Positions 8,782-62,205 of a stretch of DNA of 64,000 nt are shown here, piece by piece; the first letter of the stretch is position 1, and every line of letters starts with the position of its first letter. The DNA lies in the IMG/VR virus record IMGVR_UViG_3300025770_001492, positions 1 through 64,000 of that record; one strand, given 5' to 3'. A program made the translations under genes and the position numbers. The stretch comes from a virus. The notes under the pieces were generated by a model. That model was given only the letters and a program-made list of their open reading frames with translations. It did no database searches and had not been told where the DNA came from.

Positions 8782-9414
8782 CTAAAAAGTGTAATTTTTG
8801 TTCGGTTTACGACAACGAATTTGCCACGAAACCGAGTATTCCCGCAATCCTTTATTTTCTAAGAAACTTGTTTTCTTTCTCAAAACAAGCCCTTCAATTT
8901 CATCTCGATCAATAAATTTTTTGAACTCTCCACAAAAATCAGAATCAAAAGTTTGAGCCAAAAATATGTTTTCTGTCACCCTTTTTGCCAGACCTCCTGA
9001 CTCTAAGTCTTTCGGTGAACGACAAATTTTATCCAACATGTCTAACCTCTCCAATTGGTTAGGCTTACGATACAGATATCGGTCAGCCTGTAAGAGATCA
9101 AACAAAACAATTCTGTTTTTGTAGTCAGCAGATTTTGTTTTAAAGGATAGAAGTTCACTGTCAATCCAGTATTCTTTTCCTTTAATTAAATTTAAAGAAA
9201 TAATTTCTTTCTTGATGGATTCCGTAGGACTGAATTGCTTGTGGCAATCACCATGGCGACTGAACATGCTTACACGCCCATCGCAATCAACATGTATTAA
9301 ATTTCGAGTTCCATTGAATTTTCTTTGCACAACCCACTGGCCTGAAGATTCGTATTTTCCCAAAGCATTAGGAGAAATTCGTCCTTTGGGTCTGGGTGGG
9401 AACAATATCTTCAT
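8782..9414 (-). CDS. ATP-dependent DNA ligase-like nucleotidyltransferase
   Basis: A 210-aa adenylation-domain protein. Motif I is VQRKFNGTRN with the likely AMP-accepting lysine; motif III is YWIDSELL, motif IV IEGLVLRK and motif V WQIRCRKPNK. Length fits a ligase catalytic core without an added OB domain, as in some small viral ligases. It probably seals DNA nicks; RNA as substrate is not excluded. I set the start at 9414, preceded by AGGAG; an upstream GTG is less likely. Confidence 0.75.
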   Translation of the reverse strand: MKILFPPRPKGRISPNALGKYESSGQWVVQRKFNGTRNLIHVDCDGRVSMFSRHGDCHKQFSPTESIKKEIISLNLIKGKEYWIDSELLSFKTKSADYKNRIVLFDLLQADRYLYRKPNQLERLDMLDKICRSPKDLESGGLAKRVTENIFLAQTFDSDFCGEFKKFIDRDEIEGLVLRKKTSFLENKGLREYSVSWQIRCRKPNKNYTF

Positions 9415-9447
9415 TTCAAAATCTCCTATGATCCTTGGCACAGGAAA

Positions 9448-9475
9448 ATGATACTGATTTTTCTAAGCCTGTAAA
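9448..9475 (-). promoter_or_regulatory. Promoter for the ligase-like gene (TTTACA-N16-TATCAT)
   Basis: Minus-strand -35 TTTACA at 9475-9470 and -10 TATCAT at 9453-9448 with a 16-nt spacer, about 35 nt before the ligase ATG. Confidence 0.6.
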
Positions 9476-48821: not shown

Positions 48822-49886
48822 TTAGTTTCCAGTTTTATCCAAGTAAATCGGGTCACGTTGCTTGATCATAAGACGACCAATGAGACCATGACTAGATTCA
48901 GTCATAGGTCGAATTACAATTCCCTCACGCAAACGATCTTTGTTAATTTTAGACTTCCCATTAGACATTTCAACAATAGTCTTATCACCCAACCATTCAC
49001 GTAGAGTAACGTTCTCTCCAAGAATAGGTGCCATGCGATCCTCTAGCTTCTTATCACGAAGAATAGAAACTAGCCTATTAGCATCTGTCCATTTACCATC
49101 GATTTTAAGATCAAAGAACCTCACAGTCTTTTCACTGAGTTTGTAATAGTTACCTTGAATGGCAGTGCCATGAGCTTCACCATAAAGAGTTACAGATACT
49201 GCACTCTCATCAGAAAGAATCTCTTTCGCAAGATCAATGATCTTCTCACGACGAGCAACTTCCCACAGATAGTGTTCTCCACCATCTTTTTCAAGGATGG
49301 AATGATTGCGTTGGTTTACATGTACGCTTCCACTAACAGTTACAGTTACAGAAAAATTTTGACCTTCTACTTTTTCAGTAACAATAATTGACACACCACT
49401 GTCAAGAATACTTTGCACAACAACTGGATAGTTTTCACAACCCTCAATGTCGTATTTTGATACACCATCTGGCAATGGCACAAGATCACAATTCTGACAA
49501 GAGATAGGCTCTGGTTCATATTTGGTAATGCCGAGAGCATCAGTAAGGTCCATGCCATGCATATCATCTACATCAACGTTCAGATGACTAGCAACTGATG
49601 CTACGTCAGCGATGAATCCCTGAGAGATTTCTTTGCGCAGCTTGACAGTTTTTACACGGTTGTGCTCTTTACCCGCCAACATGGTGCCAAGCCCAAATAA
49701 TTCGATTAACTCTGGAGTCATCACAGACTCTACAGGGAAATAAACTACTTTATCTCCAATGTCATAAGGAACATTTGAGATAAACTGATAACCAAGATCG
49801 TTTAACTTATAGATAGTCAAACGATCTGCGTTCGGATGTTGGATAACTTGATCAATAGTTTTGACTTCGACTTCAAATTTGCTCAT
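48822..49886 (-). CDS. Rnl5-type RNA ligase
   Basis: A 354-aa protein. Residues 1-100 are an OB-like module (HPNADRL at 17-23, KTVKLRKEISQGF) as in Deinococcus Rnl5. The catalytic core has motif I EKVEG with Lys172, motif III LYGEAHG, motif IV EGIVIRP and motif V LMIKQRD. Rnl5 seals 3'-OH/5'-phosphate nicks in duplex nucleic acid. AGAGGA precedes the ATG. It is the obvious candidate to rejoin the split tRNA-Thr at 55418-55648. Confidence 0.85.
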   Translation of the reverse strand: MSKFEVEVKTIDQVIQHPNADRLTIYKLNDLGYQFISNVPYDIGDKVVYFPVESVMTPELIELFGLGTMLAGKEHNRVKTVKLRKEISQGFIADVASVASHLNVDVDDMHGMDLTDALGITKYEPEPISCQNCDLVPLPDGVSKYDIEGCENYPVVVQSILDSGVSIIVTEKVEGQNFSVTVTVSGSVHVNQRNHSILEKDGGEHYLWEVARREKIIDLAKEILSDESAVSVTLYGEAHGTAIQGNYYKLSEKTVRFFDLKIDGKWTDANRLVSILRDKKLEDRMAPILGENVTLREWLGDKTIVEMSNGKSKINKDRLREGIVIRPMTESSHGLIGRLMIKQRDPIYLDKTGN

Positions 49887-55136: not shown

Positions 55137-55258
55137 TCGTTTTCCTTTTTCAAGTTTTTCAATCTTTTTCTTACAGCATTGTCAGAAACTTTGTAAAATC
55201 TTCCAGTAGCACAGAAGTTGTTTTTAAATTCTTTAAGCTTGCTTTCAAGTTCTTCTAA
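55133..55258 (-). pseudogene. C-terminal HTH remnant of an HNH-type nuclease
   Basis: The frame LEELESKLKEFKNNFCATGR followed by FYKVSDNAVRKRLKN matches the DNA-binding tail found on many phage HNH nucleases (GRxYGVSDNAVRK). It has no start codon and its 5' side runs straight into tRNA-Glu, so the nuclease body is gone. Confidence 0.55.
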
Positions 55259-55330
55259 TACCGCATGGGAGTTTCGATCTCCCTCCTGCTGTTAGAAAGA
55301 CAGCCGACCTAGCCAGTAGTCGAATGCGGC
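55259..55330 (-). tRNA. tRNA-Glu(TTC)
   Basis: Acceptor GCCGCAT pairs with ATGCGGT; D arm GACT/GGTC; anticodon arm GCTGT-CTTTCTA-ACAGC; T arm GGGAG-ATCGAAA-CTCCC, where the first loop base is A instead of T; discriminator A. 72 nt. Confidence 0.8.
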
Positions 55331-55338
55331 ATTCTAAG

Positions 55339-55411
55339 CTCTCCGAGTAGGACTTGAACCTACAACCTAGCGGTTAACAGCCGCTCGCTCTACCAATTGA
55401 GCTATCGGAGA
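55339..55411 (-). tRNA. tRNA-Asn(GTT)
   Basis: Acceptor TCTCCGA/TCGGAGA; D arm GCTC/GAGC; anticodon arm AGCGG-CTGTTAA-CCGCT; T arm GTAGG-TTCAAGT-CCTAC; discriminator G. 73 nt, all stems perfect. Confidence 0.95.
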
Positions 55412-55417
55412 TTAAAG

Positions 55418-55455
55418 AGCCAACCGTGAGACTCGAACTCACAACCTGTTGATTA
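55418..55455 (-). tRNA. tRNA-Thr(TGT), 3' half
   Basis: Minus strand begins TAA then TCAAC (3' anticodon stem), T arm GTGAG-TTCGAGT-CTCAC, acceptor GGTTGGC and discriminator T. TCAAC pairs with GTTGA and GGTTGGC with GCCAACC of the 5' half at 55614-55648. Joined, the loop reads TT-TGT-AA. The C at 55456 may belong to either side. Confidence 0.85.
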
Positions 55456-55456
55456 G

Positions 55457-55530
55457 AGCGAATGACGAGATTCGAACTCGCAATACTTCTGGGTGGAAAC
55501 CAGACGCTTTACCTAATAAGCTTCATTCGC
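55457..55530 (-). tRNA. tRNA-Gly(TCC), nested inside split tRNA-Thr
   Basis: Acceptor GCGAATG/CATTCGC; D arm AGC/AGC-type short stem with GG in the loop; anticodon arm TCTGG-TTTCCAC-CCAGA; T arm GCGAG-TTCGAAT-CTCGT; discriminator T. Its 3' end abuts the Thr 3' half. Confidence 0.9.
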
Positions 55531-55537
55531 AACTGAG

Positions 55538-55613
55538 TCGGGGAGACAGGATTTGAACCTGCGATAACTCCCGGCCCCAAACCGGGCGGACGACCAGACT
55601 GTCCAACTCCCCG
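55538..55613 (-). tRNA. tRNA-Pro(TGG), nested inside split tRNA-Thr
   Basis: Acceptor CGGGGAG/CTCCCCG; D arm GGAC/GTCC; anticodon arm CCCGG-TTTGGGG-CCGGG; T arm GCAGG-TTCAAAT-CCTGT; discriminator A. Its first base directly follows the last base of the Thr 5' half. Confidence 0.95.
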
Positions 55614-55648
55614 CAAATCAACTGCTCTGCCAATTGAGCTAGGTTGGC
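55614..55648 (-). tRNA. tRNA-Thr(TGT), 5' half
   Basis: Minus strand: acceptor GCCAACC, TA, D arm GCTC-AATTGGCA-GAGC, A, anticodon stem GTTGA, then loop bases TT-TG, after which tRNA-Pro starts. The break falls between anticodon positions 35 and 36. Confidence 0.88.
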
Positions 55649-62121: not shown

Positions 62122-62139
62122 AGTTAACTTTCTGTAAAT

Positions 62140-62205
62140 GATGAAGGATTCGAACTTGCGGCCTCAAGGTTATGAGCCTTGCGAGATACCCCTTCTCCAT
62201 CCTGC
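62140..62205 (-). tRNA. tRNA-Met-like element (CAT), 3' part degenerate
   Basis: The 5' side (CGCAGGATGGAGA) resembles an initiator tRNA; D arm GAGA/TCTC and anticodon arm CAAGG-CTCATAA-CCTTG are intact. The T stem GCAAG does not pair with CCTTC, and no matching acceptor 3' strand is found. An alternative 7-bp pairing GATGGAG/CTTCATC exists but breaks the D arm. Possibly a decayed or unusual tRNA. Confidence 0.45.

Follow-up and report, generated by a model that had tools for sequence, protein, structure and literature searches.

A phage tRNA-Thr gene split in its anticodon loop by two complete tRNA genes, and its probable splicing through tRNA maturation

Can a transfer RNA (tRNA) gene that encloses two other tRNA genes still give rise to a functional tRNA? 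This question is raised by a locus in a stretch of 64,000 nucleotides (nt), here called the window, which is part of a 245,522-bp virus record (IMG/VR IMGVR_UViG_3300025770_001492). On the minus strand of the window, a gene for tRNA-Thr(UGU) is split in the anticodon loop, between nucleotides 35 and 36 (35/36), and complete genes for tRNA-Pro(UGG) and tRNA-Gly(UCC) lie between the two halves. We consider it quite likely that this is a tRNA gene with an intron made of tRNAs, which is spliced by RNase P, a tRNA 3' endonuclease and a phage ligase. The source virus is a myophage with a genome of 245,522 bp, a giant bacterial virus; its genome contains a contractile-tail sheath gene, a transfer-messenger RNA (tmRNA) gene at G000:C1:111581-111937 and a small set of tRNAs. 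From the tmRNA gene and the bacterial-type tRNAs, it looks like a virus of bacteria.

The two Thr halves (Table 1) together formed a 73-nt tRNA with fully paired acceptor (7/7), D (4/4), anticodon (5/5) and T (5/5) stems and the anticodon loop TT-TGT-AA, and ARAGORN classified the joined sequence as tRNA-Thr(tgt). At the locus itself, the Thr gene was missed by both ARAGORN and Rfam; the Pro, Gly and Asn genes were seen by both programs, and Glu by ARAGORN alone. ARAGORN delimited the inner genes as Pro(TGG) 55613-55537 and Gly(TCC) 55530-55456. The Pro-Gly insert left no target duplication in tRNA-Thr. The initial annotation had claimed that the halves pair to a 73-nt tRNA with this loop, that nothing but tRNA-Pro, a 7-nt spacer and tRNA-Gly fills the gap, that tRNA-Pro follows the 5' half without any gap, and that tRNA-Gly ends zero or one base before the 3' half. 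All of this was borne out by the stems, ARAGORN, Rfam and the sequence, with the Gly discriminator at 55457 followed by one C.

Table 1. Positions of the split tRNA-Thr locus, its neighbours and the nearby ligase gene in the window
Feature	Position	Strand	Basis or remark
tRNA-Thr(UGU) 5' half, positions 1-35	55614..55648	-	stem pairing with 55455-55418; ends TTTG
tRNA-Pro(UGG), complete, first part of intervening sequence	55538..55613	-	ARAGORN; Rfam tRNA 46.8 bits
spacer CTCAGTT, 7 nt, between tRNA-Pro and tRNA-Gly	55531..55537	-	sequence
tRNA-Gly(UCC), complete, second part of intervening sequence	55457..55530	-	ARAGORN; Rfam tRNA 63.9 bits
one C separating the discriminator of tRNA-Gly from the 3' half of tRNA-Thr	55456	-	sequence
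tRNA-Thr(UGU) 3' half, positions 36-73, 38 nt	55418..55455	-	stem pairing; starts TAA, U73 discriminator
tRNA-Asn(GUU), next gene in tRNA cluster	55338..55411	-	ARAGORN, Rfam
tRNA-Glu(UUC), last in tRNA cluster	55258..55331	-	ARAGORN
candidate RNA ligase, 354 amino acids, OB-fold and nucleotidyltransferase, PHROG_968 / NgrRnl-like	48822..49886	-	domain searches

For the 231-nt precursor, the unconstrained minimum free energy (MFE) fold consisted of three nested cloverleaves (-84.3 kcal/mol, z -3.2), with the Thr anticodon stem leading straight into the two inner ones. In the phage's own genome, a geometric scanner, which looks for a 7-bp acceptor stem, a D arm, a 5-bp anticodon stem, a T arm and an insert within the loop, picked up the split Thr locus and a single other case, which is group-I-like. 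The 64-kb window, dinucleotide-shuffled 60 times, gave no match, and neither did six contigs of control phages with 138 intact tRNAs in 957 kb, which were scanned at laxer settings. Just 5' of the Thr 5' half, a hairpin at 55683-55659 (minus strand) repeats the Thr acceptor strands in its arms (CCAACC/GGTTGG); it could be a competitor or regulator of Thr folding.

The 3' border of the insert involves C 55456. The Thr loop has exactly seven nucleotides only if this C departs with tRNA-Gly, as its C74, and the initial annotation was right that a 7-nt loop needs it there, since a cut one base earlier would yield eight. Its statement that most tRNAs carry a C after the discriminator also held: this C, alone and not as CCA, was present in eight of the nine clear tRNA/tmRNA genes, an unusual partial CCA. 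This makes it more plausible that 3' ends are first trimmed to N73-C74 and that the CCA is completed afterwards. Judged from the sequence, the Gly 3' cut would fall either after the discriminator T or after the following C.

The proposed route is as follows. One transcript would fold into three nested cloverleaves. RNase P, which leaves a 3'-OH on the upstream piece and a 5'-phosphate on the tRNA, would cut immediately upstream of tRNA-Pro, so that the Thr 5' half would end in a 3'-OH on nucleotide 35. An RNase Z-type tRNA 3' endonuclease would cut behind tRNA-Gly and leave a 5'-phosphate on the Thr 3' half. The halves, kept together by the anticodon and acceptor stems, would then be sealed to tRNA-Thr(UGU) by a phage ligase of the 3'-OH/5'-phosphate type (48822-49886 in the window and/or a T4-Rnl1-type enzyme at genome 80630-81868), and a single precursor would yield the Thr, Pro and Gly tRNAs. 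End healing would be unnecessary, because the ends would already be of the ligatable type. The gene anatomy and the fold are observed, whereas which enzymes act, what ends they leave and that these ends are joined is our inference. RNase Z is reported to cleave behind the discriminator or, in a number of bacteria and archaea, directly behind an encoded CCA (PMC7479834), and T4 Rnl1 seals tRNA halves bearing 3'-OH and 5'-phosphate (PMC3400036). In other phages the same scheme would apply, with the intron mostly turned into a tRNA-like element that does not decode and has CCA at its end.

Such phages were found by pattern scans of IMG/VR, followed by the geometric scanner on the matching contigs. 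Sixteen further distinct phage tRNA genes (Lys, Thr, Asn or Gln) were split at 34/35, 35/36 or 36/37; the insert was a complete tRNA in one of them, and otherwise a tRNA-like element of 55-119 nt. Nearest to the window arrangement was contig L030, in which a tRNA-Lys(UUU) gene is split at 36/37 by a complete tRNA-Asn(GUU) plus CCA. The tRNA-Thr(UGU) genes of L028, L246, L310, L297, L323 and L291 are split at 34/35 by 72-119-nt tRNA-like elements ending in NCCA. Genes for tRNA-Lys(UUU) contain a tRNA-like element at 34/35 (L187/L189, L297, L324, L313, L091/L319) or at 35/36 (L246, L259), a tRNA-Asn(GUU) gene contains one in L315, and the insert of a tRNA-Gln(UUG) gene in L246 lacks CCA. In total, the inner element ended with an encoded CCA in 15 of the 16 genes, namely the tRNA-Asn of L030 and 14 tRNA-like elements (NCCA); unlike these, the inner tRNA-Gly of the window has no encoded CCA, so CCA is common but not universal. 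Most inserts had retained the acceptor, D and T arms and had lost a usable anticodon arm, of which a GNRA-type loop is left in L315, an 8-bp hairpin in the L246 Lys gene and nothing in the 58-nt element of L297. The inserts are mostly tRNA-shaped and are not decoding tRNAs. A U2-G71 wobble was noted in 7 of the 16 inner acceptor stems (L028, L246, L187, L297 Lys, L324, L313 and L315). In addition, Thr, Asn and Arg tRNAs with 48-50-nt acceptor/T-arm-like inserts were seen (L048:852-973, L028:638-758, L275 (-)9327-9450), which may be the most reduced members of the class.

After removal of the insert, a loop of exactly seven nucleotides was obtained for all 16 genes. In every well-fitting case, the insert began and ended where RNase P and 3' processing would normally cut the inner tRNA, and the CCA-bearing members fit the maturation model to the base. 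A search with an open 5' border gave 12 elements with a 7-bp acceptor stem and NCCA, and each of them left exactly a 7-nt loop with U33 and a sensible anticodon; the CCA position was preset by the pattern for those elements that one particular IMG/VR scan alone had found, and not for those from the other scans. This recurrence bears on the possibility that an assembly or binning error fused pieces of different tRNA genes. The record is indeed a metagenomic contig, taken as deposited, but its pieces fit to the base as one tRNA, similar arrangements occur in many contigs, and an identical interrupted tRNA-Lys was recovered from two different metagenomes (L187, L189); we regard such an artefact as highly improbable.

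Further searches delimited the occurrence of these genes. The double-nested Thr pattern had no second case in IMG/VR, and two complete decoding tRNAs as an insert were seen only in the window. The exact 16-nt junction pattern had four chance matches in IMG/VR, none of them in tRNAs, and no relatives were found via two neighbouring proteins (584 and 403 amino acids). A BLAST search of the inserts against 50,697 phage records gave no match, and the CCANTAA junction was absent from 13 phage records, most of them from isolates, that encode related ligases. A general bacterial feature was rejected for the 3'-junction pattern, the only one used here: among 61 matches in 84,980 bacterial and archaeal genomes, none was a tRNA-like intron, and two from Micrarchaeota look like ordinary archaeal introns. 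As for related phages, in which the initial annotation had proposed to look for the same layout, other phages do carry this kind of interruption, but no second Pro-Gly layout came to light.

Next, the maintenance of the split genes was considered. Five related Thr genes with tRNA-like inserts were aligned and 40 pairs were scored, with partners slid by 1-3 columns as the control. Paired cells accounted for 99.5%, compared to 36-41% when slid, and 20 of the 40 pairs had two-sided changes. Such changes affected 4 of 7 pairs in the outer acceptor stem, 3 of 5 in the outer anticodon stem and 6 of 7 in the inner acceptor stem. Covariation of both outer and inner stems indicates that the reassembled tRNA is maintained, and so is the insert's tRNA-like fold. 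Furthermore, in six genomes read nearly whole, an intact gene for tRNA-Thr(UGU), Lys(UUU) or Asn(GUU) was present in 0 of 9 cases with a split gene, and in 8 of 9 without one (Fisher p 4e-4). The window phage agrees with this picture: a search for an intact or second tRNA-Thr, as suggested by the initial annotation, found none in the 245.5-kb genome besides the split tRNA-Thr(UGU). By codon count, its UGU anticodon corresponds to ACA, the most used Thr codon of the phage, and the Pro, Gly, Glu and Arg tRNAs likewise match the most used codon of their amino acids.

These results argue against a dead tRNA-Thr gene, broken by a recent insertion of a Pro-Gly tRNA cassette and replaced in use by the host tRNA-Thr. 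Phage tRNA clusters are prone to recombination, and no relative of the window locus was found in the searches made, both of which count for this explanation. However, the stems of the joined tRNA are all perfect, the anticodon fits the commonest Thr codon, no target duplication is present, the loop has exactly seven nucleotides with C74 on tRNA-Gly, and the split tRNAs of other phages covary and are sole copies. A dead gene is thus quite unlikely in our view.

Splicing through maturation of the inner tRNAs calls for a ligase, and the candidate RNA ligase of the window is located 5.6 kb from the split locus. It matched PF09414 (63 bits), PF21189, phrog_968 (E 2e-34) and the Naegleria RNA ligase (E 3e-15); its KVEG aligned to the KLDG of the latter (KxxG motif), and the later ligase motifs were present. 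Sealing of 3'-OH and 5'-phosphate ends is the biochemistry of NgrRnl-DraRnl-type family members. Of the 17 contigs with interrupted tRNAs, 13 carried PHROG_968, compared to 2 of 22 tRNA-bearing control contigs of at least 107 kb (p 3e-5, a value that ignores kinship). Three of the four negative contigs are fragments of less than 30 kb, and the match in G008 is partial. A second ligase of the genome, at genome 80630-81868, was classified as T4-Rnl1-type by its match to PHROG_562 (E 2e-30) and by PF09511 in the genome search (57.7 bits). These two results were preferred to a Pfam hmmscan of the protein at this position, which gave no match. The T4-Rnl1 type was dropped as the common enzyme, because this family is not common to the contigs with interrupted tRNAs. 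Two side observations concern related enzymes. Window 8782-9441 (minus strand) encodes another small protein that resembles nucleotidyltransferases and ligases (PF01068 with 35 bits, weak match to RNA_ligase), and in two intron-bearing phages a Thg1-like protein (tRNA-His guanylyltransferase) adjoins the PHROG_968 ligase (L345:1978-2835, L347:2560-3201), a possible tRNA-repair cassette.

Alternatively, the loop might be cut by a dedicated endonuclease or a ribozyme, with the tRNA fold as a mere handle or recognition element; the ends would then be a cyclic phosphate and a 5'-OH, which require healing by a kinase-phosphatase before ligation. End-healing enzymes often occur in phages with RNA ligases (PMC7824862), and the same loops also hold inserts without a clear tRNA fold (an 87-nt class, L151/L200), so several routes may exist. 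In contrast, the insert borders match the RNase P and 3'-processing sites, the inner acceptor pairs covary, no group I intron was found at the window locus, and RtcB, which has a different end chemistry, was found in 0 of 15 contigs with interrupted tRNAs. Taken together, we consider this alternative unlikely.

Several points nevertheless weigh against splicing by inner-tRNA maturation. A cut right after the Gly discriminator (T) would give an 8-nt Thr loop (TTTGCTAA). Relatives of the window locus were not found in the searches made, and the covariation evidence comes from other loci. Identical loci are common to L187/L189 and to L091/L319, and the counts are not fully independent. In four near-fits (L048, L028:638, L275 and G007 Asn), the borders are ambiguous by 1-2 nt. 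The link to the ligase may be due in part to kinship among phages rich in tRNAs. Interrupted tRNAs are absent from two controls that do encode the ligase, which shows that the ligase is not sufficient. On balance, the proposal of the initial annotation that maturation of the inner tRNAs plus a ligase splices tRNA-Thr has gained support from the recurrence, the 7-nt loops, the covariation, the sole copies and the ligase enrichment. It also appears fairly likely that bacterial viruses possess their own class of protein-spliced tRNA introns, consisting of tRNAs or their derivatives in the anticodon loop and removed by housekeeping maturation enzymes and a phage ligase.

Different inserts were also met in the scans. 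Outside the window, a tRNA-Leu(UAA)-like gene at G000:C1:177366-177637 (minus strand; L017) contains a group-I-like intron of about 200 nt. A homologue (L028:1871-2055) was recognized by Rfam as a group I intron with 58 bits; the phage's own copy stayed below the Rfam threshold, and, from its sequence, seems to carry a group I intron. The tRNA-Thr genes (about 160 nt) of L151, L200, L210, L224, L226 and L233 have an 87-nt structured anticodon-loop insert that is not tRNA-like and has covarying stems, possibly another intron class. An H-type-pseudoknot-like insert followed by an acceptor/T-arm minihelix was seen in L173:8082-8231, L178:5569-5718, L281:2859-3007 (Arg) and L167 (-)214-382. L151/L200 and L173/L178/L281 were set aside as other structured inserts. 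Synechococcus phage B23 (L533, 220408-220517) and BUCT-ZZ01 (L535, 111204-111447), two deposited cyanophage genomes, have inserts of about 40 nt on the 5' side of the anticodon stem, with a common core of TAAAA, a hairpin and CTGCAAT, in apparent tRNA-Arg(TCG), Asn(GTT) and Met/Ile(CAT) genes; their long tRNA matches were rejected as class members on account of this different insert. L087 and L166 were set aside because their halves belong to neighbouring intact tRNAs, L031 because its long inserts are not tRNA-like, and L033 because of a 530-nt ribozyme-like insert. Elsewhere in the window, a degenerate tRNA-Met-like gene with a CAT anticodon and a poor D arm lies at 62139-62201 (minus strand; 63 nt, 31.7 bits), and a long series of open reading frames at 13700-38300 was assigned as glycosyltransferase-, sulfotransferase- and methyltransferase-like by reading the translations.

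If our interpretation is true, it would represent a new kind of RNA splicing, with no dedicated endonuclease and with introns that are themselves tRNAs. It would provide a simple path to tRNA introns and split tRNAs, and phage RNA ligases would gain a role in maturation besides repair. The series from complete tRNAs to acceptor/T-arm minihelices would show the origin and decay of an intron. Standard tRNA finders miss these phage tRNAs, i.e. Thr in this case and several Thr, Lys, Asn and Gln tRNAs elsewhere. No earlier description of a tRNA as an intron was found in the full text of 5.4 million open papers, preprints and subscription papers being outside the search. A review of 2014 describes bacterial tRNA genes as uniform and names group I and II introns as the sole significant interruptions (PMC4033280).

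Of the systems already described, the group I introns of bacterial and phage tRNAs are also anticodon-loop inserts whose removal restores a 7-nt loop. However, they contain a ribozyme core, whereas the inserts described here are tRNAs or tRNA-like elements of 55-160 nt without such a core; at the window locus, an Rfam scan found no group I catalytic core, but tRNA matches only. In the bulge-helix-bulge (BHB) introns of archaeal and eukaryotic tRNAs and the split, trans-spliced tRNAs of Nanoarchaeum, protein enzymes likewise connect two tRNA halves within the anticodon loop (PMC4090602). They depend on the bulge-helix-bulge endonuclease, are mostly located at 37/38 and yield a cyclic phosphate and a 5'-OH, in contrast to the positions 34/35, 35/36 and 36/37 found here, and the MFE fold of the window precursor contained no BHB helix at the exon-intron borders. 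In circularly permuted tRNA genes the halves are also encoded apart, but with the 3' half upstream, whereas here the 5' half is upstream (on the minus strand) and other tRNAs lie in between. The T4 tRNA repair system, Pnkp plus Rnl1 acting after PrrC, resembles the proposed route in that a phage ligase seals a break in the anticodon loop (PMC3400036). In the present proposal, the break would result from the normal maturation of nested tRNAs and the ends would already be 3'-OH and 5'-phosphate, and the enriched ligase is of the PHROG_968 (OB-fold, Naegleria/Deinococcus-like) type instead of Rnl1. Finally, in polycistronic phage tRNA arrays tandem tRNAs are also freed by RNase P and 3' processing, but here one tRNA encloses two others.
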